IMG/VR virus record: IMGVR_UViG_3300005577_000052
Coordinates: 1-43,122 of that record
Source of the DNA: a virus
Direction: 5' to 3' (one strand)
DNA: 43,122 nt
This document shows, piece after piece, positions 25,184-41,595 of the stretch. The translations under genes were made by a program, and so were the position numbers. The number at the start of each line of letters is the position of its first letter. Position 1 is the first letter of the stretch. Below the pieces are notes generated by a model. That model was not told the DNA's origin. It saw only the letters and a list, made by a program, of their open reading frames with translations, and made no database searches.

Positions 25184-25212
25184 AATCTACTGTCACAAGA
25201 CAGTGCTGTCAA
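25184..25212 (-). promoter_or_regulatory. leftward early promoter PL with operator in spacer
   Basis: On the minus strand, TTGACA (25212-25207) is followed by exactly 17 bases and TAGATT (25189-25184). The ATG of the first gene begins eight bases after the -10. The spacer and the end of the -35 carry GACAG-N2-CTGTC-N4-GACAG, the same half-site order and spacing as in the rightward promoter. A bound repressor would cover both hexamers. Confidence 0.75.
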
Positions 25213-25267: not shown

Positions 25268-25615
25268 CTATCCGGGCCGGTACGACGTGCGGCGCTGCGA
25301 GCTCGGCGCGGTCTCCGCGACGTTCGCCGGGCGCTGCAGGCCAGACGGTTCCTCGCCGAGTAGCAGCCAGGCTGGGCGCACACCGAGCGCGCGAGCCAGC
25401 ATGATGACCGTGTTGGCGGTCACTCCGACCACTTTATCGCCAGACATGTACTTACTGAAATTGCCGCTATCGACCCCTGCTGATGCGGCGATCTCGTTCT
25501 GTGAGAGACCGGGTCTCTCCGCAATTCGTTCGTTCACCGCGTAGCGCAGTCGTCCAGGAAACCCCCGCCACTCTGGTGCAACTGCGCGAGAGGAATCGTT
25601 CTTTCGCGCTGCCAT
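25268..25615 (-). CDS. XRE-family repressor (CI-like)
   Basis: This 115-residue protein has an XRE helix-turn-helix: GLSQNEIAASAGVDSGNFSK (about residues 36-55) followed by YMSGDKVVGVTANTVIMLAR and ALGVRPAWLLLGE. It lacks the S24 peptidase domain of LexA-cleavable repressors; after residue 90 the tail is short and disordered. Its recognition helix shares GNFSK with the Cro-like protein at 25708, so both probably read the same GACAG/CTGTC operators. It ends just before the hairpin terminator at 25234-25262. A weak promoter may lie at 25676-25649. As it cannot be cleaved like LambdaCI, induction must use another route. Confidence 0.8.
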   Translation of the reverse strand: MAARKNDSSRAVAPEWRGFPGRLRYAVNERIAERPGLSQNEIAASAGVDSGNFSKYMSGDKVVGVTANTVIMLARALGVRPAWLLLGEEPSGLQRPANVAETAPSSQRRTSYRPG

Positions 25616-25648: not shown

Positions 25649-25676
25649 AACATAGACAGCCGGAGTCTCTTGACAG
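25649..25676 (-). promoter_or_regulatory. possible repressor promoter (PRM-like)
   Basis: On the minus strand CTGTCA (25676-25671), 16 bases, then TATGTT (25654-25649), 33 bases upstream of the repressor ATG. Each hexamer matches the sigma70 consensus at four positions. The -35 overlaps the outermost half-site of the rightward operator, and an extra GACAG half-site lies at 25655-25659. Weak candidate. Confidence 0.35.
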
Positions 25677-25698
25677 TGCTGTCACAAGACAGTAATAC
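25670..25698 (+). promoter_or_regulatory. rightward promoter PR with operator in spacer
   Basis: TTGACA (25670-25675), a 17-base spacer (25676-25692) and TAATAC (25693-25698). The ATG of the Cro-like gene starts nine bases later, so the mRNA should be leaderless. The operator 25672-25692 reads GACAG-N2-CTGTC-N4-GACAG, as in PL and in the same orientation relative to transcription. The spacers differ outside the half-sites, which argues for selection on the half-sites. Confidence 0.75.
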
Positions 25699-25707
25699 TG
25701 GGGTGCG

Positions 25708-25944
25708 ATGAATCGAGGAGCACAGCACCTGGCCGCTCGCGTAGAGGAGTGGGTGGCGGAAGATCCGAAGGGCCGGTCCCAGAATGCGGCGGCAGCCCTT
25801 GTCGAATGCGACACCGGCAATTTCAGCAAGATTCTGAAGGGCGACGGGCGCTCGCCGGGGCGAGCTTTGGCGATTCGAATCAAGGAGCACTTCGGGACGG
25901 AGCCTCAGTGGTTCGATGAGCCAGCAGAGGAGCCCGCCGCGTGA
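25708..25944 (+). CDS. Cro-like XRE protein
   Basis: The 78-residue protein carries one helix-turn-helix: GRSQNAAAALVECDTGNFSK (about 22-41), then ILKGDGRSPGRALAIRIKE. The turn and recognition helix closely match those of the opposing repressor (DSGNFSK against DTGNFSK). It is the first rightward gene, directly behind PR with no room for a ribosome-binding site, so the start codon is at or near the mRNA 5' end. The divergent arrangement of a longer leftward and a shorter rightward XRE gene is the classic lysis/lysogeny switch. Confidence 0.75.
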   Translation: MNRGAQHLAARVEEWVAEDPKGRSQNAAAALVECDTGNFSKILKGDGRSPGRALAIRIKEHFGTEPQWFDEPAEEPAA

Positions 25945-25946
25945 CC

Positions 25947-26249
25947 TCACCTCACCGAGCATACCCGGCGACCTTCGTATCGCTTCGACTCGACACACCG
26001 GGCTCCGTTGGGACAAGGCTGCGACTCGCAGAACGTCGGCGGGCGGCAATGGACAGTCAGCTCACCGTTGCCGCTGACCACGCGCTTGTCACTGATTTCG
26101 AAGCCGTACGGGCAGACGGTGCGAGCGTAGCGGTAGCAATCAAGGGGCTCCTCGCACTCGATTGCGTATTGGCGCGGTCCGATTCGTTGCCAGCCGCCTG
26201 ACGTGCAGGCCGAAACAAGTACTACGCACAGAAAGGTGATGACTCGCAT
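25947..26249 (-). CDS. cysteine-rich lipoprotein, antisense between cro and the next gene (moron candidate)
   Basis: This 100-residue protein has a textbook lipoprotein signal: MRVITFLCVVLVSAC with Cys15 in the lipobox, then TSGGW. The mature part has YAIECEEPLDCYRYARTVCP and ends in an EGF-like run of Cys (CESQPCPNGARC). It lies on the minus strand inside the rightward operon and converges on cro with two bases between the stops. Upstream, TTGACC (26286-26281), 17 bases and TGTTCT (26263-26258) sit eight bases before the ATG. This is the same geometry as PL, although the -10 is poor. An independently expressed surface lipoprotein suggests lysogenic conversion or superinfection exclusion. The open frame on the other strand is its shadow. 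Confidence 0.65.
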   Translation of the reverse strand: MRVITFLCVVLVSACTSGGWQRIGPRQYAIECEEPLDCYRYARTVCPYGFEISDKRVVSGNGELTVHCRPPTFCESQPCPNGARCVESKRYEGRRVCSVR

Positions 26250-26609: not shown

Positions 26610-26836
26610 TGGGTCCGATTGAACGGGAACTGCGCACACAAGCAGAGTCTTGCCGTTGCGGCACCGGCACAGGTGGGACGCCGTACGAATTCTTGGCCGG
26701 CATTGGCGGTTGGTCCCTGGGTTCATCCGCACAGGAGCTACTCGGCGCCTGTGTCTCTCACCCAGAAGACGGTGAGTGGACGAACGAGGAGTCGTGGTCC
26801 GAGGCCATCGAAGCGGCGGAGGCGCTCGGCCTGTGA
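26609..26836 (+). CDS. small early protein, unknown
   Basis: This 75-residue protein is read from ATG 26609 behind AAAGGGGA. It contains SCRCGTGTGGTPYEF with a CxC pair and ends in an acidic helix (NEESWSEAIEAAEALGL). Its GTGA overlap with the next gene supports the frame. No family recognised. Confidence 0.5.
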   Translation: MGPIERELRTQAESCRCGTGTGGTPYEFLAGIGGWSLGSSAQELLGACVSHPEDGEWTNEESWSEAIEAAEALGL

Positions 26837-27156
26837 CCCTCCTCGAAGCCGCGGACGTCATGAGCCGCACGAAGCTGGGCCGAACCAAGGCCTACGCGCT
26901 CATGAAGCGGCACGGCTTCGTGTTCGAGGGCAAGCGCGTCATCTCCGAAGAGACTCTGGAAAGGCTGATTCGCGAATGTCAGACGGGTTCTTCAAGCGCG
27001 GCAAAGTCTGGTGGTTCCGCACCGACCCGATCACGGGGAAGCAGGCGTCGAGCGGCAAGCGGGACATCGAGTCGGCGCGTCTCGAGTACCGCGAGCGCAG
27101 CCGTCGCGCTTCCAACCCTGAATACCAATCCGAAGCCCAAGAGGATTCGGGCTTGA
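26833..27156 (+). CDS. excisionase-like helix-turn-helix protein
   Basis: This 107-residue protein starts at GTG 26833 (GTGA overlap). Residues 1-46 are a MerR/AlpA-like DNA-binding domain: TLLEAADVMSRTKLGRTKAY, then ALMKRHGFVFEGKRVISEE and TLERLI. The C-terminal 60 residues are Ser/Arg-rich and low in complexity, and they overlap the start of the integrase gene in another frame by 181 bases. Position before int and domain type support Xis (recombination directionality factor). The long overlap means the tail is constrained by the integrase frame and may be dispensable. Confidence 0.6.
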   Translation: MTLLEAADVMSRTKLGRTKAYALMKRHGFVFEGKRVISEETLERLIRECQTGSSSAAKSGGSAPTRSRGSRRRAASGTSSRRVSSTASAAVALPTLNTNPKPKRIRA

Positions 27157-28553
27157 ACCACTGGGCGGTCAAGTTCGTCGAGCACAAGCGCGCGACCAAG
27201 TCGGCCGCGACTGCCAGTTTCTACGCGAAGAAGCTCGGGCACATCGTGCGCATCTTCGGGGCCGCCACTCCCATCGACAACGCGCTCCGGCCCAGCAACT
27301 TCGATCGCTACTTCGTGCAGCGCAAGGAAGAGGGTGCTCGCTCGACTACCATCAGCAAAGAGATTCGGTCCGCTCAGACGCTGGCCCGCTTTGCCGCCCG
27401 CGCCGGCGCCTACCACGGCCGTCCCGAGCTGTTCCGCCCGTCCGAGCTGAGCGATGACTACGAGCCCGGCGAGCGCTTCCTGACGCCCGAGGAGCTGGTG
27501 CTCCTGCTGCCCGAGCTCGCCCCGAAGCGTGCCGCCGATGTCTGCCTACGCATCGCCATCGGCAGCCGCTACTCTGAGGCCTACCGAGTCCAGCCCGGCG
27601 ACGTCGACACCGAGCGCTGGCTGGTCCACGTTCGCGGCTCCAAGACCAAGAAGGCACGGGCCACCATCCCCATTGCCGAGCCATTCAGGAACCTGCTGAC
27701 GGCCGCGCTGCCCTATCTGCCGCTTGAGCCCTGGCACAACTCCAACATGGTCCGGGACCTGGCCAAGGCGTGCAAGCGGGCTGGTGTGACGCGCGTCACA
27801 GCCAACGACCTCCGCCGCACGCATGGCAGCTGGCTGTCCCAGGCTGGCGTCGGCGACGAGCACATCGGCAAGGTTCTCCGCCACGCTGACGGGAGGATGG
27901 CGCGCCGGGTGTACGCGAAACTGCCTGCCGAGCAGCTCGGACGACTGATCGACGCGACAATTGTGACAACGGAAGGAGCCGAGGATGAAGGAATCAGCAC
28001 ACGTGGCTTACGACGCATACGGGGACTTCGTGGAGTGGAAGAACTACGCGGGGCTACCAATGCCGAAATGGCACGAGCTACCGGAGAAAATCCAGGGAGC
28101 GTGGCGAGCCGCAATAGCGGCCGTGACTGGCTAACTGAGAATGAGCGCGCCGCGCGGGCGTGTCATTTTTGGGAGGATCCGCCCGCGGCGGGCGCAACAA
28201 TAACGCAACAATTGCCCGCTCGCGGTGAATCGGCCGCGGCGGATTCCTCAACAATTCCCGATGAGTCAACGGAGGTGGATATGCGGATTGAAAATCCTCG
28301 TGTCGGCGGTTCAATTCCGTCCCGGGACACCGAAGAAACCACGCGGTTTCCGGTAGATACGACAGGCGAAGAAGTTCGCGGCGTATCGCCAAGTGACGCT
28401 AAAGACCGCAGCGTCCGCAACGAAAACGCAACAGCCCCGTCCGTAACCGTTCGCGGCGTCACCTACTACGCCGACCCGAACGCTCCGCGCGGCGGGCCCG
28501 ACCTGCACCTAGACGCCGCCCAGTCGCTTTACTGGCTCGGGGGTGGGCGGTGA
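26976..28553 (+). CDS. int: tyrosine integrase with attP-spanning C-terminal extension
   Basis: The 525-residue protein is read from ATG 26976. It has an N-terminal arm-binding part (1-50, KRGKVWWFRTDPITGK), a core-binding part (about 55-150) and the catalytic domain: Arg198 in GSRYSE, the Lys region KTKK (223-226), NDLR280 where the canonical box is HxxR, His303 in LRHAD and the nucleophile Tyr313. The first box II His is an Asn. The catalytic domain ends near 330; about 195 more residues follow. They first run over a nested small gene (27985-28134) in a frame that looks non-coding, then through attP (about 436-453), then a normal-looking coding stretch (about 480-525). The next gene starts in GTGA overlap with its stop. 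Confidence 0.85.
   Translation: MSDGFFKRGKVWWFRTDPITGKQASSGKRDIESARLEYRERSRRASNPEYQSEAQEDSGLNHWAVKFVEHKRATKSAATASFYAKKLGHIVRIFGAATPIDNALRPSNFDRYFVQRKEEGARSTTISKEIRSAQTLARFAARAGAYHGRPELFRPSELSDDYEPGERFLTPEELVLLLPELAPKRAADVCLRIAIGSRYSEAYRVQPGDVDTERWLVHVRGSKTKKARATIPIAEPFRNLLTAALPYLPLEPWHNSNMVRDLAKACKRAGVTRVTANDLRRTHGSWLSQAGVGDEHIGKVLRHADGRMARRVYAKLPAEQLGRLIDATIVTTEGAEDEGISTRGLRRIRGLRGVEELRGATNAEMARATGENPGSVASRNSGRDWLTENERAARACHFWEDPPAAGATITQQLPARGESAAADSSTIPDESTEVDMRIENPRVGGSIPSRDTEETTRFPVDTTGEEVRGVSPSDAKDRSVRNENATAPSVTVRGVTYYADPNAPRGGPDLHLDAAQSLYWLGGGR
27985..28134 (+). CDS. 49-residue protein nested in the integrase frame
   Basis: This gene lies fully within the int frame in another reading frame, behind a strong GGAAGGAG site. 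The product, with VAYDAYGDFVEWKNYAGLPM and WHELPEKIQGAWRAAI, belongs to a very common small phage/actinobacterial-type family (AYxAY...PxWxxLPexIqxAW). In this stretch the int frame is rich in Arg and Gly, as a shadow frame would be. The nested gene therefore looks like the older one and the integrase like the one that lost its stop. Confidence 0.6.
   Translation: MKESAHVAYDAYGDFVEWKNYAGLPMPKWHELPEKIQGAWRAAIAAVTG
28148..28190. other. GC-rich hairpin upstream of attP
   Basis: Near-perfect inverted repeat: 28148-28160 pairs with 28180-28190 (11 base pairs, two-base bulge), with a 19-base loop containing a T run. It sits between the nested small gene and the arm repeats. It may shape the intasome or end transcripts; no proof. 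Confidence 0.4.
28195..28255 (+). other. candidate integrase arm-type repeats
   Basis: CAACAAT occurs at 28195-28201, 28206-28212 and 28249-28255, that is, 11 and 43 bases apart, close to one and four helical turns. All three point the same way and lie just upstream of the attP core. This is typical of integrase arm-binding sites. A weaker partial copy, CAACGAA/CAACAGC, lies downstream near 28418-28434. Confidence 0.45.
28281..28553 (+). CDS. possible separate gene starting at attP (in frame with int)
   Basis: ATG 28281 has a GGAGG site five bases upstream and lies four bases left of the attP core. The frame is the integrase's own, giving 90 residues: the tRNA-derived part RIENPRVGGSIPSRDTE, then a plausible coding region ending SLYWLGGGR with strong GC bias at third positions. 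It may be the 3' end of int, a separate protein made from its own start, or both. In a prophage this start and its ribosome site are replaced by host DNA. Confidence 0.35.
   Translation: MRIENPRVGGSIPSRDTEETTRFPVDTTGEEVRGVSPSDAKDRSVRNENATAPSVTVRGVTYYADPNAPRGGPDLHLDAAQSLYWLGGGR
28285..28331 (+). other. attP: attP core, equal to the 3' half of a tRNA-Phe(GAA)
   Basis: The 47 bases match the anticodon loop (TTGAAAA), the 3' anticodon strand TCCTC, variable loop GTGTC, T-arm GGCGG-TTCAATT-CCGTC (five pairs, one G-U) and the 3' acceptor strand CCGGGAC with ACC of a tRNA-Phe. The 5' half of a tRNA is absent. Phages of this type insert into tRNA genes and restore the 3' end, so the host target is predicted to be tRNA-Phe with acceptor GTCCCGG. 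The core lies inside the integrase reading frame. Confidence 0.8.
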
Positions 28554-28783
28554 GGGCCAAGTGCGAGCTCTATTGCCCACTCTGTGGGAGACCCAAGGGC
28601 TTCTACCGGGCGTCGCCGTCCGCATGCGTCCAGCAGACTTGGGGGGATTGCCTTCCATGGATCGTTGAGGTCGCCCGCGCGCTGACCCGCGACTCGGAGG
28701 ACGAGCGGATCGTCGACGAGCTCATGGCCAAGGTCCAAGCGGGTCGCGCTGAGCGAAAGCTTGGTCCGGCGAGGTCCGCATGA
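28550..28783 (+). CDS. small zinc-ribbon protein
   Basis: The 77-residue protein starts at GTG 28550 (GTGA overlap with int). The start YCPLCGRPKGFYRAS..ACVQ gives a CxxC plus a later Cys, probably half of a zinc ribbon, then a Trp-containing helix and ERIVDELMAKVQAGRAER. The first gene to the right of attP. No function assigned. Confidence 0.5.
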   Translation: MRAKCELYCPLCGRPKGFYRASPSACVQQTWGDCLPWIVEVARALTRDSEDERIVDELMAKVQAGRAERKLGPARSA

Positions 28784-28938
28784 CCCGCGACGACTTCGAC
28801 GACGTCCAGGGCTGGCCGGCGGTGGCGACGCGGGTCTACCGCCTCCGAGCGCGCTCCCGCTCGTACCGCAACTGGCGGCACCGGAAGAACAAGCCGCTCT
28901 GGTACCGGGCGCTCAAGGCCAGGGGGAGTTTGCGATGA
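28780..28938 (+). CDS. 52-residue basic protein
   Basis: It is read from ATG 28780 (ATGA overlap) to the TGA at 28936-28938, which overlaps the next ATG. The peptide is rich in Arg, Trp and Tyr (YRLRARSRSYRNWRHRKNK), so it may bind nucleic acid. It tiles perfectly with both neighbours. Confidence 0.5.
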   Translation: MTRDDFDDVQGWPAVATRVYRLRARSRSYRNWRHRKNKPLWYRALKARGSLR

Positions 28939-29222
28939 GTACGTGCTCAAGATGCGGGCTGCCTGTCGGTGACCCCTTCATCGACTCAGAGAAGGCTGGT
29001 CGCGTTTGCCTGGCCTTCGAATCGGAGAACCATCCCGAGCACGAGGTGCACGTTCTTGCCTGCCGCGATCGCGAGCTCGCCAACCTGCGTTCCCTGCTCC
29101 GGTCGGTGACGGGCAAGCTGGAGCGTGTGTCCGAGCTGATGGACACTCCGTTGGCAGAGGTCTCGTCTGAGTTGGTGCGAGCCAAGGCGCTCGTCGATTC
29201 GGTACTGGAGGCGTTGTCGTGA
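28935..29222 (+). CDS. small zinc-finger-like early protein
   Basis: This 95-residue protein is read from ATG 28935 behind AGGGGGAG. The start MSTCSRCGLPVGDPF has a CxxC, with Cys and His again at VHVLACRDRE; a helix ELANLRSLLRSVTGKLE follows. It is coupled to the next gene by GTGA. No family recognised. Confidence 0.55.
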   Translation: MSTCSRCGLPVGDPFIDSEKAGRVCLAFESENHPEHEVHVLACRDRELANLRSLLRSVTGKLERVSELMDTPLAEVSSELVRAKALVDSVLEALS

Positions 29223-29533
29223 GCGAAACCAAGCTCTCCGCCGCCATTGCGTCTGCGCTCGCGAAGCTCGGCTACCCCGTCGTGCGCGTCCAGTCCGGCA
29301 CGGCTCGTATGGGCCGGTACTACGTGCACATGGCTGCGCGTGGCACTCCGGACCGCATTGTGCTGCTCCGCCGTGGCCGCGTCCTGTGGCTCGAGGTGAA
29401 GACGCCTAGCGGCATTCTCAGTGCTGACCAAGTGGCGTGGCATGCGCGTGCTGCAGAACGTGGCCACGCCGTGCGCGTCGTCAAGAGCGTGTCCGATGCA
29501 ATCGCTGCGGTGAGGGAGGTTGATGCGGCATGA
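29219..29533 (+). CDS. VRR-NUC-type nuclease (Holliday-junction resolvase-like)
   Basis: The 104-residue protein is read from GTG 29219. The VRR-NUC signature is visible: RGTPDRI (Asp45) on a strand, LWLEVKTPSG (Glu59-x-Lys61) on the next, and the helix with Gln71 (SADQVAWHARAAE). These are the metal-binding residues of the PD-(D/E)XK fold. Such phage nucleases act on branched or broken DNA. It sits at the front of the replication gene group, so roles in replication restart or recombination are plausible. Confidence 0.75.
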   Translation: MSETKLSAAIASALAKLGYPVVRVQSGTARMGRYYVHMAARGTPDRIVLLRRGRVLWLEVKTPSGILSADQVAWHARAAERGHAVRVVKSVSDAIAAVREVDAA

Positions 29534-29886
29534 ATGCTGTTCTGGATAAACCGTACCTGGACGTTCCGATTGCGCCGCTCGCGAAGTGCGTCGCGGATGG
29601 CCACATGATTGTCGAACTAGTTGCCACGGCCTATCGCATCGAAGCCCAGACGGTTGTCTTCGGCGGCAGAGAGAAGCTGGTAATGGAAGCCCGCAAGGTT
29701 GCGTACTGGCTTCTGCGCACGGTGGCCAAGAGGAGCTGGGGGGAGGTTGCCAGCACACTATCGAAGGACCATTCCACAGCCATATCAGGCGTTCGTGGCT
29801 GCGAGAGCAAGCGCGCCAATGACCCGGCGTTTCGGGAGTTCACGGACCAGCTGGCCATCGTGGTTGCTCAGAGGATTCAGGGATGA
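29530..29886 (+). CDS. stand-alone DnaA domain IV-like DNA-binding protein
   Basis: The 118-residue protein is ATGA-coupled on both sides. Residues 50-105 match the C-terminal DNA-binding domain of DnaA: ARKVAYWLLRTVAKRSWGE, then the signature SKDHSTAISGVRG (78-90; DnaA has GRDHTTV.HA). The AAA+ ATPase domain of DnaA is missing; residues 1-48 resemble no known domain. It probably binds DnaA-box-like sites and could help recruit host DnaA or mask its boxes. It lies directly before the replisome organiser, so it is likely an origin-recognition accessory. Confidence 0.8.
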   Translation: MNAVLDKPYLDVPIAPLAKCVADGHMIVELVATAYRIEAQTVVFGGREKLVMEARKVAYWLLRTVAKRSWGEVASTLSKDHSTAISGVRGCESKRANDPAFREFTDQLAIVVAQRIQG

Positions 29887-30656
29887 GCTGGGCGAAGCTC
29901 GATGACCGTGCCAACGAGCACCAGAAGCAGCTCCTGGCTGGCCCCGAGGCGTGCTGGTTGTGGGCCTGCGGCTTGATGTACGCGAACCGGCAGGCAGCTC
30001 GAGACGGCTTCATCCCGTCGCTCGTGCTGCCGATGCTCTACCCGTTCAAGAGTCCCAAGCGTCTCGCCGAGCGCCTGGTCGAGGTCGGGCTGTGGGACGC
30101 GACAGACAACGGGTACGTGGTCCACAACTTCACCAAGTGGAACAAGACGCAGGAACAGGTACAGGCCGAACGAGACGCCACCCGTAACAGGGTTCGAGAC
30201 TACCGAGCGCGCAACGCTACCGGTAACGCCGTTACACCACCGGATGTAACAGACCCCTGTAACGCTCCTGTACCGGATCCACTCCACTCCACTCCGCTAC
30301 CAATCCAGGAGAGATCCGAGAGGGGCGAATCTGCGGCTGGCGCCGCCGGCCCAAAGAAACCACGGCGGGTATCCCGGGTGCCTGAGGCATGGGAACCTAA
30401 GCCCGAACACGTGAACCTGGCCATGCAGCTCGGGGCGGATTTAACCGCTGAGTTGGCGAAGTTCCGGGACCACGAGTTCAGAAACCCGAAGTCCGATTTC
30501 GATGCCTGTTTCCGGACCTGGCTCCGGCGAAGCATCGAACTGCGCCGGCAAGCGATTGGGCAACGGCTGACCGAAGGGCGCGCCGCGGATGCGCTGGAAA
30601 AGCAGGTGGCTCGAGCCAATGCGCTGCGAGTTTTGGAGCGAAAGGCACTGCCATGA
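29883..30656 (+). CDS. replisome organiser/initiator (O-like)
   Basis: The 257-residue protein has a two-domain initiator layout. The N-terminal winged-helix part (1-95) ends with GYVVHNFTKWNKTQEQVQA, a hallmark of phage replisome organisers. A Pro/Thr-rich linker (about 110-160) follows. The C-terminal helical domain (170-240) has FRNPKSDFDACFRTWLRRS, like helicase-binding ends. The linker DNA carries five GTAAC/GTTAC repeats (30184-30263), as in Lambda where iterons lie inside O. The next gene looks like the helicase loader. Confidence 0.75.
   Translation: MSWAKLDDRANEHQKQLLAGPEACWLWACGLMYANRQAARDGFIPSLVLPMLYPFKSPKRLAERLVEVGLWDATDNGYVVHNFTKWNKTQEQVQAERDATRNRVRDYRARNATGNAVTPPDVTDPCNAPVPDPLHSTPLPIQERSERGESAAGAAGPKKPRRVSRVPEAWEPKPEHVNLAMQLGADLTAELAKFRDHEFRNPKSDFDACFRTWLRRSIELRRQAIGQRLTEGRAADALEKQVARANALRVLERKALP
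30184..30263. other. ori: candidate origin of replication: GTAAC repeats in the initiator linker
   Basis: GTAAC occurs at 30184-30188, 30223-30227, 30246-30250 and 30259-30263, and its reverse complement at 30231-30235: five copies in 80 bases. In a GC-rich genome that is dense. The repeats lie in the linker of the O-like initiator gene, the position of Lambda's iterons. No clearly AT-rich unwinding element is seen right after them. Confidence 0.45.
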
Positions 30657-30985
30657 CCAAGTCCGAAGTGACCGAATTGGTTGCGATTCTGATGTCCTGT
30701 TACCCGAACGCGCGGTTCCCGGACGGCACCGTGGTGGCGTACGAAATGTTCCTCGGCGAGCTCGAGCACGAGCGGGCAAAACAGGCCGTCGCGAACCTGG
30801 TCCGCACGAGCAAATTCATGCCGACCATCGCCGAAATCATGGCGGCATACGGTGCTGGCAAAGAGCCCGTTCAGGCCCCGTACCACCGGCTTTTCCTGCC
30901 CAGGCCAGAACCGTCCAACGTGATGGCGCCAGGTGAGCTCAAGTCGGCAATCGACGAATTCCTGGCCGGAAAGGGCCCGTCGTGA
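30653..30985 (+). CDS. G39P-like helicase loader
   Basis: This 110-residue protein matches the N-terminal domain of SPP1 G39P-type loaders: LVAILMSCYPNARFPDGTVV followed by a helix pair and VRTSKFMPTIAEIMAAYG (about 43-66). In such loaders the FxPTIAEI helix binds the replicative helicase. Here the partner would be host DnaB, because no phage helicase exists in the window. It is ATGA-coupled to the initiator. Confidence 0.7.
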   Translation: MTKSEVTELVAILMSCYPNARFPDGTVVAYEMFLGELEHERAKQAVANLVRTSKFMPTIAEIMAAYGAGKEPVQAPYHRLFLPRPEPSNVMAPGELKSAIDEFLAGKGPS

Positions 30986-31152
30986 GTCAGCGCGACAGTT
31001 TTCGCCGGATGTACGGCGACGAGCTCGCAGACCAGGTCGAGCAGCTCAAACGCAAGCCGCGCGGCGTCGAAGTGCTGCCGGTCAAACCGCGCAAGCCTGA
31101 GCCGAAACAGCAGGAAAAGCGCGACGACATCGAGAATTGGTGGGACAAGTGA
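30982..31152 (+). CDS. 56-residue basic protein of the replication group
   Basis: It is read from GTG 30982 (GTGA overlap) to TGA 31150-31152. The sequence is Lys/Arg/Pro-rich (VEVLPVKPRKPEPKQQEKR) and ends in DDIENWWDK. Small basic tails like this can bridge loader and initiator. No known family. Confidence 0.5.
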   Translation: MSQRDSFRRMYGDELADQVEQLKRKPRGVEVLPVKPRKPEPKQQEKRDDIENWWDK

Positions 31153-31219
31153 TTGCTAATAGGTCAACATTCGTGCCAATAAATCATCATCCATCGCGCG
31201 TGCGTGCGCAGGAAATCCC
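31153..31219 (+). other. AT-rich gap before the sugar island
   Basis: This is a 67-base gap with locally higher A+T (ATAAATCATCATCC). It contains TTGCTA-N19-AATAAA (about 31155-31185), a poor sigma70 match that would allow independent expression of the sugar genes, for example in the lysogen. A CAGGAAAT ribosome site ends the gap. Confidence 0.3.
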
Positions 31220-33640
31220 ATGAAAATCAGCTGCACCATGATTGTCCGGGACGAGGCGAGCACGCTCCGAGCCTGCCTGGAAAGCATCAAACCGCACGTC
31301 GATGAGCTGGTGATTGTCGACACGGGCAGCACCGATTCGACGCCCGAAATCGCGCGAGAGTTCGCCGATCGCTTCGAAGTTTGGACCGGCTGCAACGATT
31401 CGGAAGGGCGCATCGCGGACTTCTCGGCCGCCCGAAACTATGCGCTCGAGCTCGCAACCGGTGACGCCGTGTGCTGGTTTGATGGCGACGACGTGGTCCG
31501 AGGCGCTGAGAACCTGCGCCGGCTGGCTCAGGAATCGTCCGGCGAGGCTTGGGCATGGCTGGCCCCGTACGAGTACGAACGCGACGCACAGGGCCGCGTG
31601 GTGACGCTGCAGTGGCGCGAGCGGCTGGTCTATCCGCGAACCGGCTGGGAGTGGCGTAGCCCGGTGCATGAGGGCCTCTTGGGCAAGGCCGGGACGTCGC
31701 CGGCGTACCAGCAGACCGATGCGTTGGTCGTCGAGCACCAGCTGCACCGCTCGAGCAAGCCGCGCGACCCGCAACGGAACCTGCGCATCTTGGAGGGCCA
31801 CGTGCGCAAGGTCGGCGAGACGGACGCGCGCTCGCTGCACTACTTGGGCGCCGAGTTGATGTTCAACGGCCGGGTCGGTGAGGCCTGCTACTGGTTCCGC
31901 CGACACACACAGCTCAGCGGCTGGAGCGACGAGCGCTGCCTGAGTCTGCTGCATCTGGCCCGCATCACGCTGGCGATGGGCGACTGGCAGGCGAGCATCG
32001 ATTGGGCGCTACAGGCCGTTGCAACGAAGAGCTGGCCGGAGCCGTACTGGCTGATGGGGCAGGCCTGCTGCATGATGGCCGAGGCGGGCATCGAGCCGGA
32101 GTACAACTACCGCCGCGGTGCACACATGCTGCAGCAGGGCTTTGCGTGCGACAAGCCGGAGCTGGGCGGCTCGCTGTTGATGAAAGACCCCACGGCGCGC
32201 ATCGAGGCGCACCGATGGCTCGCTCCGGCGCTGGCCAAGCTAGGCCGAGTGGACCAAGCCATCGAGTCAGCGCAGACCGGTCTGGCAGGCAATGCCAAGG
32301 CCGAGGAGCTGCGGCATCTGCTGGGCCTACTGAAGCGCGAGAAGGTCCTGGCGCAAGTGGCCGAGCTCGACCAGCTGGGCGCGCTGCCGCAACACGCGGG
32401 CGTCGTCATCGCGGCAACCCTGAAGGGTGAGTTTAAGGTCGAGCGGGAGCGCTCCAAGGTCGAGCGTCATACGCGGGAATACTCGCCTGGCGACCGTGAA
32501 TGGCGAGAGGTGAAGAACGCGCACCCGCTGTTCCTTGGGGACCGCTCCGTGCGCCTCCGCATCGCCTTCTACCTCGGCCATCAGCTCGAGCCGTGGACGC
32601 CCGAGACGCTTGAAGCGAACGGCATGGGCGGTTCAGAGACGATGGCGTGGGAGATGAGTAAGCGGCTGGCGAAGCTCGGTCATGCGGTGACGGTCTTTGG
32701 TCACTGCAGCATGCTCAGCAAGGTTCAGGTATTCGACGGGGTCGCTTGGACAGACTCCAGTCGCTTTCCTAGCGATGTGCCATACGACGTCCTCATCGTC
32801 TCGCGCCAACACTGGGCGGTCGAGCTGCCGCATATCGCCAAGACGCGCGTCCTTTGGGTGCATGACGTCCATGTCGGTCCCGAGTTCACACCGGCCATCG
32901 CGGCGAAGTACGACCTCGTGTGGTGCCTGTCGAATTGGCACCGTGAGTTCTTTCTGCAGACCTATCCGTGGCTGCCGCCCGGCAAAGTGGAGGTGACGCG
33001 CAATGGAATCGACCCCGCTCGTTTTGGTCGCACTGACGTACCTCGCAATCCTCACCGGGCTATTTATTCGAGCAGTCCTGACCGTGGTCTGGAAGAGGCG
33101 GTCAAGGCGTGGCCAGCCGTGCGCAAGGCGGTACCCGATGCCGAGCTGCACGTGTATTACGGGTTCGAGAATTGGGAACGCTCCCTCGAGCTTAACGGTG
33201 ATAACGGGCATCCGAACTGCTCGCGGGCTGCGCTTACTCGGCTGAAGGGGCTCGTTGCGGAGACGCCCGGCATCGTCATGCACGGTCGCGTCAACCAGCG
33301 CGAGCTGGCCGATGCAATGCTAGGCGCCGGCGTCTGGTTCTATCCGACCTGGTTCAGCGAGACGAGCTGCATCACGGCCATGGAGGCGCAGGCAGCGGGG
33401 TTGTGGTGCGTGTGCCCGTATCGAGCTGCGCTGGCCGAGACGGTCCCAGACAGCGCTCGATGTTGGGACGTCGAAGGAGACCCCGTGAAGGCGGTACTGT
33501 GGGCAATTCGACTGGCGCGAAAGAGCACCGTGCATGAGCCATGCAACGTGTCCCTCGACGCTCTCGCCGCCGACTGGGACAAGCGCCTCCGTAAGCTCGT
33601 AGACGACGTGGTGCCAGCATTCTCGGAGGCGGCGCAGTGA
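31220..33640 (+). CDS. bifunctional glycosyltransferase (GT2 + GT4-like)
   Basis: The 806-residue protein is a fusion. Residues 1-110 are GT2: ISCTMIVRDEASTLRACLES opens the fold, DTGSTDST binds the nucleotide, and DGDD (88-91) is the metal site. Residues 170-430 are helical repeats, TPR-like. Residues about 446-800 are a GT4-like domain with NGMGGSETMAWEMSKRL (nucleotide loop), SSPDRGL and the EX7E pair Glu714/Glu722. It starts behind CAGGAAAT. The C-terminal half resembles the single GT at 34739, suggesting shared ancestry. Such fusions build or modify surface glycans or glycosylate proteins; the acceptor is unknown. Confidence 0.8.
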   Translation: MKISCTMIVRDEASTLRACLESIKPHVDELVIVDTGSTDSTPEIAREFADRFEVWTGCNDSEGRIADFSAARNYALELATGDAVCWFDGDDVVRGAENLRRLAQESSGEAWAWLAPYEYERDAQGRVVTLQWRERLVYPRTGWEWRSPVHEGLLGKAGTSPAYQQTDALVVEHQLHRSSKPRDPQRNLRILEGHVRKVGETDARSLHYLGAELMFNGRVGEACYWFRRHTQLSGWSDERCLSLLHLARITLAMGDWQASIDWALQAVATKSWPEPYWLMGQACCMMAEAGIEPEYNYRRGAHMLQQGFACDKPELGGSLLMKDPTARIEAHRWLAPALAKLGRVDQAIESAQTGLAGNAKAEELRHLLGLLKREKVLAQVAELDQLGALPQHAGVVIAATLKGEFKVERERSKVERHTREYSPGDREWREVKNAHPLFLGDRSVRLRIAFYLGHQLEPWTPETLEANGMGGSETMAWEMSKRLAKLGHAVTVFGHCSMLSKVQVFDGVAWTDSSRFPSDVPYDVLIVSRQHWAVELPHIAKTRVLWVHDVHVGPEFTPAIAAKYDLVWCLSNWHREFFLQTYPWLPPGKVEVTRNGIDPARFGRTDVPRNPHRAIYSSSPDRGLEEAVKAWPAVRKAVPDAELHVYYGFENWERSLELNGDNGHPNCSRAALTRLKGLVAETPGIVMHGRVNQRELADAMLGAGVWFYPTWFSETSCITAMEAQAAGLWCVCPYRAALAETVPDSARCWDVEGDPVKAVLWAIRLARKSTVHEPCNVSLDALAADWDKRLRKLVDDVVPAFSEAAQ

Positions 33641-34308
33641 AGCTCAACCTCTGCTGCGGCACGAACCTCTTTCCCGGCTGGCTCAACATCGACCAGAGCG
33701 ACGTGGAGCAGGACTACCTGCGGCACTTGCGAGACGCGCCGGAAGGATTCGTCTGGCCGCCTGAGCAACAGCGACTGGCTGATGCGGTGAAGGCTGGTCA
33801 GCTCGACTTTCGCCGGCACGATGTGCGCCATGGCCTGCCGTTCCCGGATGGCTCGGTCGAGGCCATCTACGTTGGGCAGGCTATCGAGCACTTCAACAGG
33901 CGGACCGAGGCGCCGCGGTTTCTGAAGGAGTGCTGCCGCGTGCTGCGGCAGTACGGGGTCATCAAACTGACCACGCCGGACCTTGGAAAGCTGGCGCTTG
34001 CTTACTATGACTCGACGGAACGCGGTGGCGGCGGACTGGGCGAGTTTACGGGGGAGCAGCCTGCTTTCTATGCCAGCGCCGAGCCGGCGGACCAGCTCGC
34101 GTATCTGCTCTTTGGCGCCTCGGGTGAAAACAGCACGAACGAGAACTACGAGGGGCACCACCACTGCTACACGAGCCGTTCGCTCGGGACGCTGCTGGAG
34201 GAATGCGGCTTCCAGGTCCGGTTCACGGATAACGTCGAGTTCCGTGACTGCATCGACAAGGGCATGTCGCACAGCTTCGCCATCGAGGCGGTGAAAGCCT
34301 TAGGATGA
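33637..34308 (+). CDS. SAM-dependent methyltransferase
   Basis: This 223-residue protein is read from GTG 33637. It opens with LNLCCGTNLFPGWLNID, a class I motif I/II pattern. FPDGSVEAIYVGQAIEHF and RVLRQYGVIKLTTPDL are the next two core strands. These are Methyltransf_11-like and common in sugar clusters. The substrate is unknown. It is coupled on both sides to sugar genes, so it probably methylates a sugar or the glycan end. Confidence 0.75.
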   Translation: MKLNLCCGTNLFPGWLNIDQSDVEQDYLRHLRDAPEGFVWPPEQQRLADAVKAGQLDFRRHDVRHGLPFPDGSVEAIYVGQAIEHFNRRTEAPRFLKECCRVLRQYGVIKLTTPDLGKLALAYYDSTERGGGGLGEFTGEQPAFYASAEPADQLAYLLFGASGENSTNENYEGHHHCYTSRSLGTLLEECGFQVRFTDNVEFRDCIDKGMSHSFAIEAVKALG

Positions 34309-34742
34309 AAATGAAGCGCTTTTGGTCAAAGGTAGACACGTCTGGGGAATGTTGGAATTGGACCGCATCCACCGACCATGACGGCTATGGCTACTTCGCC
34401 ATTGGCCTAAAGACCGCGAAGTCGCACAGGGTTTCCTGGGAGATTTCCAATGGGCCAATCCCGGCAGGGATGCATGTTCTTCACAAGTGCGACAACCCAA
34501 GGTGCGTCCGCCCATCCCATCTCTTCCTGGGCACCAACTCCGATAACATGTCGGACAAGGTCACCAAGAGGCGACAGGCGCGCGGCGTGCGACATGGACA
34601 CGCTGCGCTGAATGTCATCGACGTTTGGCTCATGCGGAAGGCCTGTGAATTATTGCCGGTATCGCAGCGGCAAGTAGCCAGAACCTGGGGCGTTGACCAG
34701 AAAACCGTGAACAATCTTGTGCGCGGAAAGTCTTATCAATGA
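34305..34742 (+). CDS. HNH homing endonuclease
   Basis: This 145-residue protein is read from ATG 34305 (ATGA overlap). It has the HNH_3 layout: ECWNWTASTDHDGYGYFAIG, then LHKCDNPRCVRPSHLFLGTN (about 59-79) with the metal Cys/His. A C-terminal helix-turn-helix, SQRQVARTWGVDQKTVNNLV (about 118-137), completes the typical homing endonuclease. It is less GC-rich than its neighbours and splits the sugar genes, so it is probably a mobile insertion. No intron or intein boundary is visible. Confidence 0.8.
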   Translation: MKMKRFWSKVDTSGECWNWTASTDHDGYGYFAIGLKTAKSHRVSWEISNGPIPAGMHVLHKCDNPRCVRPSHLFLGTNSDNMSDKVTKRRQARGVRHGHAALNVIDVWLMRKACELLPVSQRQVARTWGVDQKTVNNLVRGKSYQ

Positions 34743-35797
34743 GAATCGCCGTCACCTACGGCCCGATGTGCCTGCTCCGGTCTGCCGAGGAGACCTGGGA
34801 CGATCCGCGCACGGGCAGTGAGATTGGCTGGAGGCGGATTGTCGAGGGATTGAGGGCGCGTGGGCATCAGGTTGTAAGCAACCCGTCGGAGCCACCCACC
34901 TACTACATCGCCTCTCAGCTGTTCGATGCCGTGATTTCCATCAACGAACCGGACTCGCTCAGGCCGTGGCGCTCGAAGCTCCGAATCTGCATGTTTTGGC
35001 TGAACGAGTTTTCGTTCTGCAAGGAAGGATTTGACGAGCATGTCGACTGGTATTTCTCGCCGTCTGAGGCGCACCGGCAAAAGGCAATCGGAGACTGGGG
35101 AGCGCCGCGTCCCGAAAAGTGGCGGACCAACCTCCTCGGGTGTGACGAACGCGGAGCTGTGGGCCGAGCTGTATCGCGCATATCTGGAAGAGCCGTTTAT
35201 TGCTCATCCCCTGACAGGGGGCTCCACCGGGTCCTTGAGCAGTGGCCGTCAATCATTCGCTCTGCACCTCACGCGACGCTCAAAATCTTCTACCGGCTCG
35301 AACCCTGGCTCCGCGGATTCGACACCACGCCGTACTACCCGCCGATCGAACGCAACCGCACGCGCGCGCTCTACATCGAAGAAGCGCTGAAGCGGATGAG
35401 TGGCCCGGAATGGGGCATCACGGTGGTGGACAGCATCCCGCGTGACCAGTTGCAGCTCGAGCTCGCGCAGGCCGAGGTGTTTCTGCATCCGTGCGAAACG
35501 CTTTCGTGGAGCGAGGGCTTCAGTTGCAGTACAATGGAGGCGTGCGCTGCTGGAGCGGCGCCCATCATCACTGATTGCGACGCGCTTGGAGAAGTTTACG
35601 CGCCGCTCGACCCGGTCAAGACAGGCGACTGGGTCGGGTGGCGGGAACGCGTCATTAGGGCGCTAAAAGACGGCGAATTCCGGGAAGATTTGAGCAAGCG
35701 GGCACAGCGGCTCGCATCGGAGCATTCATGGGAAGCACACGTATCGAGATTGCACGAGTTCCTGATGACGCATTCGTCAACGATGCGGGCTGGATAG
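34739..35797 (+). CDS. GT4-like glycosyltransferase
   Basis: The 352-residue protein has the GT4 C-terminal fold: RAVYCSSPDRGLHRVL (about 151-166), VVDSIPRDQLQLELAQA, and the EX7E pair in SEGFSCSTMEACAAGAAP. The N-terminal half has an INEP..RP loop and a W-N-E-F stretch in place of the common glycine-rich opening. It looks like a shorter relative of the C-terminal half of the protein at 31220. The acceptor is unknown. The 3' end overlaps the next gene by 70 bases. Confidence 0.75.
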   Translation: MRIAVTYGPMCLLRSAEETWDDPRTGSEIGWRRIVEGLRARGHQVVSNPSEPPTYYIASQLFDAVISINEPDSLRPWRSKLRICMFWLNEFSFCKEGFDEHVDWYFSPSEAHRQKAIGDWGAPRPEKWRTNLLGCDERGAVGRAVSRISGRAVYCSSPDRGLHRVLEQWPSIIRSAPHATLKIFYRLEPWLRGFDTTPYYPPIERNRTRALYIEEALKRMSGPEWGITVVDSIPRDQLQLELAQAEVFLHPCETLSWSEGFSCSTMEACAAGAAPIITDCDALGEVYAPLDPVKTGDWVGWRERVIRALKDGEFREDLSKRAQRLASEHSWEAHVSRLHEFLMTHSSTMRAG

Positions 35798-36114
35798 CCA
35801 ACATCGGCTTCGGCGAGTTCCGATGCGTCGGGCTCATCTTCAGCAAGGCCGGCTCGTGGCGCTCCAAGCACTTCCACAAGACTGATGCGCACGTGCTCTA
35901 CGTGCTGAGCGGCGAGATGCACTACTGGGAACGCGACCTCGATGGCGAGTACGCGGCCGAGCCGGTCATCCTCAAGGCGAGCGAGCAGTACTACACGGGC
36001 CCGCTGCTCGTGCACAAGACGTTCTTCCCGGTCGACACGGTGCTCATCAGCATGAGCAAGAACCCGCGCGACCATGTTTCACATGAAACGGATGTGGTGC
36101 GCATCGATGGTTGA
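35728..36114 (+). CDS. cupin-fold sugar-modifying protein
   Basis: This 128-residue protein is read from ATG 35728 behind GGAG, overlapping the GT gene by 70 bases in another frame. SKHFHKTDAHVLYVLSGEMH (about 46-65) is a cupin motif with metal-binding His; a second strand set follows with HKTFFPVDTVLISMSK. Small cupins in deoxysugar clusters are often ketoisomerases or epimerases, which fits the dehydratase-like gene nearby. It could also be a regulatory cupin. Confidence 0.65.
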   Translation: MGSTRIEIARVPDDAFVNDAGWIANIGFGEFRCVGLIFSKAGSWRSKHFHKTDAHVLYVLSGEMHYWERDLDGEYAAEPVILKASEQYYTGPLLVHKTFFPVDTVLISMSKNPRDHVSHETDVVRIDG

Positions 36115-36130
36115 AGGGAGCAATGGGCGA

Positions 36131-36310
36131 ATGAGAACCGAGACCCAGCTTGTGCTTTTGGTGGCATTCCTGGCATCGCTCTGGGCCGTCTACGGTCTGC
36201 GCAGTGGTGCCGATAACGGCGAGTTTGGTAACACCAGCGTACGGTGCGTTAAGCTCAACGGTAACTGGCACGAGCCGCATGGCATCAGTCCAGGGTGGTG
36301 CGGTAAGTGA
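36131..36310 (+). CDS. small single-pass membrane protein
   Basis: The 59-residue protein is read from ATG 36131 with GAAGGGAGC upstream; an in-frame ATG at 36107 is possible. TQLVLLVAFLASLWAVYGL is a single hydrophobic segment, and the rest is polar with two Cys (CVKLNGNWHEPHGISPGWCG). It could anchor the sugar machinery or exclude other phages. The stop overlaps the next start (GTGA). Confidence 0.5.
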   Translation: MRTETQLVLLVAFLASLWAVYGLRSGADNGEFGNTSVRCVKLNGNWHEPHGISPGWCGK

Positions 36311-37611
36311 ACAACCATATCGGCCTTGACTACACCGAGCGCACGACTTGCCGGCTCTGTGACAGCTCGAACCTGTCGCCTGTGCTGGACTTGGGCGAGA
36401 CGCCGCTGGCGAACGAGCTCGGCTTGCGGGAGCAGCGTGGTACCTGTCGCAAATGCGGAGGCCCCGTTGGCCTGAGACAGACCTACTATGACGGCACGGA
36501 TAGCCTCATTTGCGTGACATGTGGACTCAGGTACGGGGCGGAACATGAGCCACCGCTGCCGACTCAACCCCAGGAGCTGTTCCCGCTCGTGGTAAACCGG
36601 TGCGGCAACTGCGAGCACCATCAGCTCAGCATCGCAGTGAAGCCGGAGCGGCTGTGGGGCCCGAGCTACCCGTACCAAAGCGGCACGTCACCGGTGTTCC
36701 GGAGGCATCTGGAGGCGCTGGCCGATGAGGTCGCGGCGCTAAAGCCGGGCGGCCGCGTGCTGGAGATTGCGAGCAATGATGGGACTCTGGTCAAGATGCT
36801 TGGAGAGCGTGGCGTGGTGGCCATGGGTGTCGACCCGAGTGGCCCGGACGATGATGCGCGAATGCTCTGGTCGCTGACTTGGCCGCCGCCCAGCAGAGAC
36901 TGGTATGGGTCGATAGGCTTCGACTGCATCATCGCCCTGAACGTGTTTGCCCACGTGGACGACCTGCACAGCTTCACCGCGGCCGTAAAGGAAGCGCTTG
37001 CTCCGGACGGCGTGTTCATCGTCGAGGTGGGCTACCTGGACAGCGTCGTAGCCAATGGGCACTTCGACACCATCTACCACGAGCACATGAGTTACCACTC
37101 GCTCAACCCGCTGGTGAGGTTCTTCGCGCGACATGGTCTGTACGCACACAACGTCAAAGGTAGCAAGTCGCAGGGTGGCTCTATACGGCTGTACCTGATG
37201 CACGAGCGCCTTCCGTTCGGCAGCGTCGGTAATGAGCACGAGCCGGACATTTCCAGGCTAGAGGCTCTCGCTACGGCGCGCGCGGCAGCTCTTCTGGTTG
37301 CTTTTGGCAAGCTCCAGAAGCGCGGCGAAAAGGTCGCCATCTACGGCTGCCCCGCCAAACTCACGACGCTGCTCTACGCGACCGGGCTGCAGTCGTTCCC
37401 GTTCGACTGTGTCGGCGACGACAACCCGCGCAAGGTTGGCCGTACGACGCCAGGCAACCACATCCCGATCGTGTCGGTGACGGAGATGCTGGAGCGGCGA
37501 CCGGACACCATCGTTGTCGCGGCCTGGAACTTCTTCGACGACATCCGGGACAAGCTGAGGCGGCTCGGGTTCAGTGGCGTAATCATCAACCCGATGGGGA
37601 GAGTCGAATGA
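36307..37611 (+). CDS. sugar C-methyltransferase with an extra zinc ribbon
   Basis: The 434-residue protein matches NovU/TylC3-type C-methyltransferases: CRLCDSSNLSPVLDLGETPL (Cys15, Cys18) and CGNC (Cys99, Cys102) form the usual zinc site. RVLEIASNDGTLVKMLGERG is the SAM motif, the HxxHxSY-like YHEHMSYHSL is the catalytic loop, and KVAIYGCPAKLTTLLY opens the C-terminal domain. Between residues 40 and 92 an additional ribbon (Cys47/50 and Cys69/72) is inserted that family members normally lack. Substrate is probably an NDP-4-keto-6-deoxysugar made by the next enzymes. Confidence 0.8.
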   Translation: MNNHIGLDYTERTTCRLCDSSNLSPVLDLGETPLANELGLREQRGTCRKCGGPVGLRQTYYDGTDSLICVTCGLRYGAEHEPPLPTQPQELFPLVVNRCGNCEHHQLSIAVKPERLWGPSYPYQSGTSPVFRRHLEALADEVAALKPGGRVLEIASNDGTLVKMLGERGVVAMGVDPSGPDDDARMLWSLTWPPPSRDWYGSIGFDCIIALNVFAHVDDLHSFTAAVKEALAPDGVFIVEVGYLDSVVANGHFDTIYHEHMSYHSLNPLVRFFARHGLYAHNVKGSKSQGGSIRLYLMHERLPFGSVGNEHEPDISRLEALATARAAALLVAFGKLQKRGEKVAIYGCPAKLTTLLYATGLQSFPFDCVGDDNPRKVGRTTPGNHIPIVSVTEMLERRPDTIVVAAWNFFDDIRDKLRRLGFSGVIINPMGRVE

Positions 37612-38552
37612 AGCGCGTGCTCGTAACCGGCGGCGCTGGATTTATCGGTCGGCACTTCGTTCGCTACCTGCTGGCCAACACGGACTGGCACATCAGCGTG
37701 CTGGACCGACTCGGCGAAGGCAGCGAGCTGACCCAGCTGTGGCGTGAGAACTCGTCCCGGCTCGACTTCATTTGGCACGACCTGCGCGCGCCCATGAAGG
37801 TGAACAACCCGCTCCGGTACCGCTACATCGTGCACATGGCGGCCGGCTCGCACGTGGACCGGAGCATCAAGGACCCAATGGGGTTCGTCGCGGACAACGT
37901 GACCGGCACGGCCAACCTGCTCGAGTTCGCACGGCACGTGGATGGCTTGGAAAAGCTGCTGCACTTCAGCACCGACGAGGTGTTCGGCGCGGCGAACGGA
38001 AAGGCGTTCGATGAGTACGACTCGTTCTACCCGACCAACCCTTACTCGGCTTCAAAAGCTGCGGCCGAAGCGCTCTGCCCGGCTTGGGCGAACACTTTCG
38101 GGCTGCCCATCGTCGTTACTCGCTGCACAAATGTGGCCGGTCCAGGCCAGGATGGCGAGAAGTTCATCCCGTCTACCATCGCCAAAGTGGGACGTGGAGA
38201 GGTGGTCCAGATCCATTCGCGCAACGGTGCCGCCTCCTCCAGAAAGTATATCGATGTTGAGGACGTGTGTTCCGCCGTTCATCAAGTTCTCATTCGGGGA
38301 GGAGTCATCGCCGGTCGAGGCACCGGCTACTACAACATCGCCGGAGAAACCGACTACTCCAACGTCGACGTAGCGGCGCGCATTGCCGAGCTGATGGGCA
38401 AGCGGCTCGAGTGGGAGCTGGTCGAGGACCCGCCGAACCGGCCGCGCCCGGACTTGCGGTACGACCTGAACAACTCGCGCCTGAAGAACCTTGGCTGGGA
38501 GCAGCGCATCAGCCTCGACACCACGCTGCGGAGGATTCTGCAATGCGACTAG
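37608..38552 (+). CDS. NAD-dependent epimerase/dehydratase (NDP-sugar)
   Basis: The 314-residue protein is an extended SDR: GGAGFIG (8-14) binds NAD, HMAAGSHVDRS follows, STDEVFG gives the active-site Thr-Asp-Glu, and NPYSASKAAAEAL holds Tyr-x3-Lys. ProArg-rich substrate loops (NRPRPDLRYDLNNSRLKNLGW) close it, as in 4,6-dehydratases and related epimerases. The Thr-Asp-Glu triad favours a dTDP-glucose 4,6-dehydratase-like reaction. It is ATGA-coupled to the methyltransferase. Confidence 0.85.
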   Translation: MKRVLVTGGAGFIGRHFVRYLLANTDWHISVLDRLGEGSELTQLWRENSSRLDFIWHDLRAPMKVNNPLRYRYIVHMAAGSHVDRSIKDPMGFVADNVTGTANLLEFARHVDGLEKLLHFSTDEVFGAANGKAFDEYDSFYPTNPYSASKAAAEALCPAWANTFGLPIVVTRCTNVAGPGQDGEKFIPSTIAKVGRGEVVQIHSRNGAASSRKYIDVEDVCSAVHQVLIRGGVIAGRGTGYYNIAGETDYSNVDVAARIAELMGKRLEWELVEDPPNRPRPDLRYDLNNSRLKNLGWEQRISLDTTLRRILQCD

Positions 38553-39199
38553 GGCTCATCGGCACGGGCAAACAGGGCCAGCGGTACCTGCAGGAGAAGA
38601 ATGGCGGACGTCATATCGTTGTTAGCGGGTCTCGTCGTATTCCTCTCGATTCTGTCGATGGTGTTATTGTCGCCACCCACCCTGCGGGACATAAGGAGCT
38701 TGCTCTCGAAGCAATCGCGGCGGGCAAGGCGGTCCTGATTGAGAAGCCGCTGGCGCTGAATCTGCGGGACTGCATGGACATCATCGATGCGGCCGAGAAA
38801 GCGGGAGTTCGTCTTGAGGTGGCGCACACGCATCTGTGGTCGGACCGTTGGTCGCGAAAGCCCTCCGATGGGAACATCATTGTTGATGTTCGCTGGAGCG
38901 AGCATGAGCGCGATTATTCGGTCTGGCTCGACTGGGGGCCGCACGTTCTTGCAATGGCGGCTTCGCTGCTGCCCGATGCCGGCCCTGCAGAGTTGAATGC
39001 CGCCGTGTGCTTGAGCAGGTGGAAAGAGCGACGCATCTTCGTGGCCGCTGTGATGCGTGACCGATCGCACTTTATCTACACAGGAGAATCCAACAGGTTC
39101 CCCATGGGCCGGATGACGGACGCGCTCTGTGGCGGCTACGACGTTACCCCTTACGACTTCAACCGGCGCGTCTACCGCGCCCTATTCGCGGAGGACTGA
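38543..39199 (+). CDS. Gfo/Idh/MocA-family oxidoreductase
   Basis: This 218-residue protein is read from ATG 38543, overlapping the previous gene by ten bases. LGLIGTGKQGQRYLQEKNGG opens the Rossmann fold; DGVIVATHPAGHKELAL and LIEKPLALNLRDC are the typical next motifs. At 218 residues it is shorter than usual (330 or more), so the C-terminal substrate domain is reduced. It may reduce a keto sugar in the same pathway, though activity is uncertain given the truncation. Confidence 0.7.
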   Translation: MRLGLIGTGKQGQRYLQEKNGGRHIVVSGSRRIPLDSVDGVIVATHPAGHKELALEAIAAGKAVLIEKPLALNLRDCMDIIDAAEKAGVRLEVAHTHLWSDRWSRKPSDGNIIVDVRWSEHERDYSVWLDWGPHVLAMAASLLPDAGPAELNAAVCLSRWKERRIFVAAVMRDRSHFIYTGESNRFPMGRMTDALCGGYDVTPYDFNRRVYRALFAED

Positions 39200-39456
39200 T
39201 GCCACCTGCAAAAGAGACTGACGGAATCGAGATTACCGGGTTCATTCTGCCTTCAACGGTGCGGCTCACGGCCACGGCCGAGTCGGGTCTGATGGTTGGC
39301 GCGCACTTCTCGACCGGCATGACCATCAGCGGCCGAATCAAGAAGATGGCTGTACTCGATACTGGCGCCGTGCGCGTTACGGTCGACCAGGGCGACGATA
39401 GGCCGCGCAAGTACCTGCTCATCTTCCCGACAGGCATGGTCGCGGAGGTCGCATGA
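39199..39456 (+). CDS. small unknown protein between sugar and chaperone genes
   Basis: This 85-residue beta-rich protein contains GIEITGFILPSTVRLTATAE, GAHFSTGMTISGRIKK and PRKYLLIFPTGMVAEVA. There is no signal or membrane segment. It is coupled to the oxidoreductase and to the GroES-like gene (ATGA). Function unknown. Confidence 0.5.
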   Translation: MPPAKETDGIEITGFILPSTVRLTATAESGLMVGAHFSTGMTISGRIKKMAVLDTGAVRVTVDQGDDRPRKYLLIFPTGMVAEVA

Positions 39457-39806
39457 GGCCCTACGCTGACAACGTGATTGTGCAGCTCGAACCGCTCGAG
39501 ACGATGACGGCGAGCGGTCTGCATCTGCCGCAGCAGTCGCGCCAGGGTGCGCGCGGCAGCCGCAAAGCCAAGGTGATTGCGTCAGGCCCGGGCCATTACC
39601 GCCAGGTGCGTGACGGCGCGAACGGCAGCCGGGACCAAGCGTTCATCGCAAACGAGACGCAGCCGGGCGACACGGTCCTGGTCGATGCGCTCGCGGGCCA
39701 AGCCTGGGAAGCCGACATGTCCATGCCGCGCCACAACAAGGGCGGTGACTTCGGGGACACCCGAATCGTTCGCGAGGCCGAAATTCTCGCAATCATCGAA
39801 GAATGA
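39453..39806 (+). CDS. GroES-like co-chaperonin
   Basis: This 117-residue protein matches the GroES/Cpn10 fold: MRPYADNVIVQLEPLE, the mobile-loop segment TASGLHLPQQSRQGARG where GroES normally has GGIVL-type residues, KVIASGPGHYR, GDTVLVDALAG and the end EILAIIEE. In the loop the GroEL-contacting I-V-L is L-H-L. About 20 residues are inserted before GDTVL. A phage co-chaperonin can enlarge or retune the host GroEL chamber for capsid folding, as T4 gp31 does. It sits right before the terminase/head genes. Confidence 0.8.
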   Translation: MRPYADNVIVQLEPLETMTASGLHLPQQSRQGARGSRKAKVIASGPGHYRQVRDGANGSRDQAFIANETQPGDTVLVDALAGQAWEADMSMPRHNKGGDFGDTRIVREAEILAIIEE

Positions 39807-41568: not shown

Positions 41569-41595
41569 TGTGCCACCTGTGCCATACTGGGCCAC

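Follow-up and report, generated by a model that had tools for sequence, protein, structure and literature searches.

An attachment site inside the integrase gene of a temperate phage, upstream of its replication and late genes

The int gene of phage P2 is under split-operon control, in which integration parts a promoter from genes that it serves in the circular phage. In the Myxococcus phage Mx8, attP lies inside int, and integration gives the gene a new 3' end (PMC6070905). In the integration-dependent immunity of mycobacteriophage BPs, attP is inside a switch gene, and integration alters the C-terminus of the product (PMC4557955). In Tn916, upstream promoters read into the distal genes only once the ends of the element have been joined (PMC6540685). 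Finally, the archaeal SSV-type integrases also have their recombination site within int (PMC8371274).

The window analyzed here is an environmental virus record of 43,122 bases. A direct end repeat of 100 bp and a portal frame that runs over the join show that the record is circular, complete and unintegrated; it is probably the genome of a temperate phage, and its GC content is 64%. Its attachment site belongs to a kind already known, the Mx8-like attP-in-int arrangement with a split operon. As in Mx8 (NC_003085), attP lies inside the int coding sequence, a small helix-turn-helix gene (uoi in Mx8) overlaps the start of int, and the order uoi-int(attP)-replication-terminase-portal-structural genes occupies one strand; a tandem 11-bp repeat stands left of the core inside int in both phages. 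However, the Int proteins are not recognizably similar (blastp E 1.5), Mx8 Uoi has no sequence match in the window, and the Mx8 core derives from a different type of tRNA and runs antisense to int. Because neither Int nor Uoi is recognizably homologous, the likeness is one of layout rather than membership by descent: judged by its gene arrangement, the window follows the same plan as Mx8 and is not a proven descendant.

The other systems are less close. Tn916 shares the circularization-dependent expression of genes (its transfer genes) that lie behind joined ends, but it is a conjugative element with no tRNA target, and the dependence is experimental there whereas we infer it here. What is split in P2 is the control of int, whereas in the window it would be the replication and late run. 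The gene that contains attP is the repressor gene in BPs and int in the window, and the window differs from the SSV type in that its site comes after the catalytic domain.

The integrase gene and the attachment site within it

The int region contains the following features.

26836-27156, + strand: HTH_17/MerR-like protein overlapping the start of int (Pfam HTH_17 E 0.003, below cut-off)
26976-28553, + strand: tyrosine integrase gene int, open for 525 codons (PF00589 E 4e-12), with the Tyr313 codon at 27912
27985-28134, + strand: 49-aa open reading frame in the next frame, overprinting the int tail, with Streptomyces phage matches
28193-28210, + strand: left (P) arm site, CGCAAC-N5-CGCAACA, a motif with just two genomic copies
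28281-28283, + strand: in-frame ATG directly left of the core, after GGAGG, a possible internal start for a 90-aa product
28285-28331, + strand: attP core, 47 nt, the 3' half of tRNA-Phe, identical in contig G008
28335-28350, + strand: 6-bp hairpin directly 3' of the core, without a T run, which may give the restored tRNA a new 3' trailer
28416-28433, + strand: right (P') arm site, the second copy of the same motif

The product of int is a tyrosine recombinase: it scores 46.7 bits against PF00589 (Phage_integrase), for which the cut-off is 27.1, and the catalytic residues R280/R281, H303 and Y313 are invariant among four integrases. Near residue 190 (alignment A1), most tyrosine integrases and the window Int have the first catalytic Arg, and the integrases of G010, G017 and G008 have GAD or AAD instead. 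Peptide patterns found no close relative of Int in viral contigs, and the genome contigs searched yielded only integrases with 23-26% identity.

No stop codon interrupts the int frame between 26976 and 28553, and so a ribosome that starts at 26976 translates through the core. The core corresponds to Int residues about 437-452 of the 525, beginning 124 codons past the catalytic Tyr313, and the whole attP (about 28193-28433, the core with both arms) lies within the frame. A previous sequence-only reading had placed the core between int and the replication genes; it is indeed upstream of the latter, but it does not follow int, which is open to 28553.

The core itself (GGATTGAAAATCCTCGTGTCGGCGGTTCAATTCCGTCCCGGGACACC) extends from the anticodon stem to the CC and includes the anticodon loop TTGAAAA, the T-arm and the acceptor. 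When 2.9 million viral contigs were scanned, the 47 nt recurred without a mismatch in one of them, the otherwise unrelated 60-kb phage contig G008, which carries the block at each end, beside an integrase 34% identical to the window Int. This argues that the tRNA-Phe core is not due to chance, bearing out the proposal that it is a real tRNA-Phe-like core. The flanks differ between the two, except for two bases directly left of the core, and the shared block should therefore be the host target; as in an Mx8-type module, the core matches a tRNA gene, here the 3' half of tRNA-Phe. The half tRNA is reported by neither ARAGORN nor Rfam. The check that the sequence-only reading had suggested, a prophage with attL/attR at tRNA-Phe, has so far given nothing: with two or fewer mismatches allowed, the core is absent from 297 + 199 genomes (about 500, from two phyla), neither a prophage copy nor an empty site was found among them, and the right-hand att junction has no match in viral contigs.

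The arm repeat is tandem, with an 11-bp step, and its two copies lie one on each side of the core. The similarity extends beyond the motif, since a 28-nt repeat around the left arm matches 28406-28433 at 82%, a value equaled in 0 of 300 shuffles. G017, G010 and G008 have the same arm design around the core, each with its own motif, and in all four phages checked (G008 in its end segments only) the arm repeats flank the core and occur nowhere else. The repeats are probably Int arm sites. Alternatively they may be excisionase sites, because direct repeats spaced by one helix turn are also bound by factors of that type (PMC7498355). The protein encoded at 26836-27156, in the position that uoi has in Mx8, is a candidate excisionase.

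Homology of Int to eight relatives (alignment of nine) stops near residue 330. AlphaFold assigns pLDDT values below 50 to residues 392-525, and third-position GC falls after 27900 from about 0.86 to 0.5-0.6. The overprinting 49-aa frame is 45-54% identical to hypothetical proteins of Streptomyces phages (E 5e-7). A folded tail domain was rejected for its lack of conservation and low pLDDT; the tail is read-through over attP. Taken together, the missing conservation, predicted disorder, low third-position GC and overprinting mean that an exchange of the Int tail may not matter. The ATG at 28281 could start a separate 90-aa product made only from the circular form; this product has no homologue in phage records.

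Gene order and promoters around the circle

The immunity region and the gene runs that flank the site are as follows.

25184-25212, - strand: leftward promoter-like site (consensus scan), with operator TGTCACAAGACAGT at 25191-25204
25268-25615, - strand: repressor-like protein of 115 aa (PHROG repressors E 2e-11; Pfam HTH_31/HTH_19)
25670-25699, + strand: PR-like promoter TTGACA-18-AATACT (consensus scan), with the second operator copy at 25680-25693
25708-25944, + strand: cro-like helix-turn-helix protein (PHROG 2328 E 4.5e-5)
25947-26249, - strand: small lipoprotein-like gene between the cro and int genes, breaking the + run
28550-31152, + strand: tightly packed replication genes (profile matches), which integration would split off
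31220-43122, + strand: sugar genes, HNH nuclease, terminase (40000-41568) and portal, in a run that extends over the join as far as about 18300

Read around the circle, PR and cro are followed by the minus-strand lipoprotein-like gene, small genes, the helix-turn-helix gene, int with attP and the replication genes, and then by the sugar, packaging and structural genes. The core precedes these last four groups, from replication to structure, and every one of them is on the + strand. Starts in the replication block are at 29219 (VRR nuclease), 29530 (DnaA C-terminal domain protein), 29883 (replication initiator) and 30653 (helicase-loader-like protein). Between replication and packaging, positions 31220-38552 hold a block of sugar-transfer, methyltransferase and nucleotide-sugar epimerase genes that is common to G014 and G015.

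The order immunity region - int - attP - replication - packaging - structure is kept in two complete relatives, G010 and G017. By terminase, the nearest relative (about 80%) is G014 (L031-L033, circular, 43,387 bp), which has sugar, packaging and structural genes in common with the window, in the same late run. Neither an integrase of the window Int family nor a tRNA half was found in G014, which is probably virulent; a late run kept without such an integrase counts against a regulatory split.

The repressor-like protein is 43% identical to that of G010, and the cro-like protein is 41% identical to the window repressor over 59 aa. The operator occurs in just two exact copies, and the consensus scan placed PR over one and the leftward promoter over the other. 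The immunity region largely agrees with the sequence-only reading, which had described an upstream PR and a short repressor lacking a peptidase domain (the protein has a helix-turn-helix only). Its unbroken + run from PR was mistaken, however, as the minus-strand gene at 25947-26249 interrupts the run, and G017 has a homologous gene in that position (35% identity, E 8e-14). With this gene lying between cro and int, int may be transcribed from a promoter other than PR. The gene is also a candidate for an exclusion protein expressed in the lysogen.

The promoter scan used a sigma70-like consensus, which may not fit the host of this high-GC genome. Within 28200-43122 it found no sigma70-like promoter, against 2.2 expected by chance; a strong promoter between 28332 and 30000, named earlier as what would refute control by integration, did not appear. 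This agrees with the sequence-only reading but is weak evidence in a genome of such high GC. No convincing terminator was found between PR and 31400. A possible terminator at 28145 was rejected as a weak match, and terminator-like sites are fewer than in shuffles.

By gene order and promoter scan, the att site lies between a promoter and distal genes of the same direction. Recombination at 28285-28331 implies that transcripts from upstream of the core cannot reach 28332 onward. Integration would consequently part all that precedes the core from all that follows it, the minus-strand gene notwithstanding, and the genes from 28332 onward would stand behind the restored tRNA-Phe gene, as had been proposed; this follows from the gene order, which is kept in G010 and G017.

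Probable consequences of integration and competing explanations

We consider it probable that, with attP in the 3' part of int and in the middle of the lytic run, integration swaps the Int tail and also splits the run. Recombination by Int would take place between the core and a tRNA-Phe gene of the host, and the last ~73 codons of int would be exchanged for host sequence, much as Mx8 Int becomes IntX. The same event would cut the replication, packaging and structural genes off from cro, the xis/uoi-like gene and int and leave them behind the restored tRNA-Phe. Upon induction, the upstream promoter would yield excision functions only, and the replication and late genes would be reached from it only once excision has closed the circle. 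Of this picture, the core, the arms, the open frame and the conserved gene order are seen in the sequences, whereas integration itself, its effect on transcription and any function of the Int tail are inferred.

On a less likely account, this is an ordinary tRNA-targeting module, with attP in its usual place by int and a long int frame that arose by loss of a stop codon. The split would then be non-regulatory, the replication and late genes using their own promoters or a trans-acting phage activator. Several observations are in line with this. The int genes of G010 and G008 stop directly before the core (4-15 nt), and the Int tail is unconserved and predicted to be disordered. Directly before int, G017 (L034:5939-6316) and G010 carry a conserved gene, 59% identical between them and with a helix-turn-helix-like end, whose product could act in trans as a regulator; the window has no recognizable counterpart. 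An open frame over 28134-28550 occurs in 4.4% of dinucleotide shuffles, a chance of about 4%. However, the frame is open over 600 nt (27951-28550) in only 0.25% of such shuffles, and the scan gave no candidate promoter to the right of the core. The relatives also include further int genes that are open through their cores: that of G017 reads through a tRNA-Leu 5' half (core, L034:7477-7517) and both arms, and those of L044 and L048 are open through an antisense tRNA-Phe half. The int gene of L047 stops about 110 nt before its antisense core, and in total int is read through the core in four of the seven members with a recognizable tRNA core. In G017, integration would rebuild the tRNA-Leu gene behind int, severed from its own promoter.

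It is doubtful that integration is the main lytic off-switch, cutting the run from its only upstream promoter while swapping the Int tail or abolishing the 90-aa product. Under that interpretation, the product (ATG 28281 to 28553) would come only from the closed circle. The repressor with operators at PR would make the split an extra layer over ordinary repression, and we favor a split that would add to a normal repressor/operator switch. The idea of control by integration therefore keeps its geometry and loses its simplicity, since a repressor with two operators is also present.

It is improbable that the promoter of the restored tRNA-Phe gene drives the split-off genes in the lysogen, in which case integration would connect rather than silence them. 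The native tRNA-Phe terminator would move to the far end of the prophage, so that read-through from the tRNA could reach these genes, and no U-tract terminator was found directly after the core. On the other hand, a small hairpin lies directly 3' of the core (z -3.3 for 28327-28365, but only -1.7 for 28332-28360), and constant expression of replication genes would harm the lysogen. Suicidal integration of the archaeal SSV type, in which the lysogen produces an inactive Int and excision depends on help, is very improbable in spite of attP lying within int, because integration at an SSV-type site detaches the catalytic part (PMC8371274) and here Tyr313 is upstream of the core and the catalytic domain would stay whole in the prophage.

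Returning to the reading of a split lytic run, the same gene order occurs with unrelated or distant integrases, those of this family and of Mx8, and int is open through cores in both orientations, which suggests that the position of attP is selected and not accidental. A selected position can be tested across environmental phages. If the reading is correct, the phage would enforce excision first and replication later by the position of its attachment site, without repressor cleavage.
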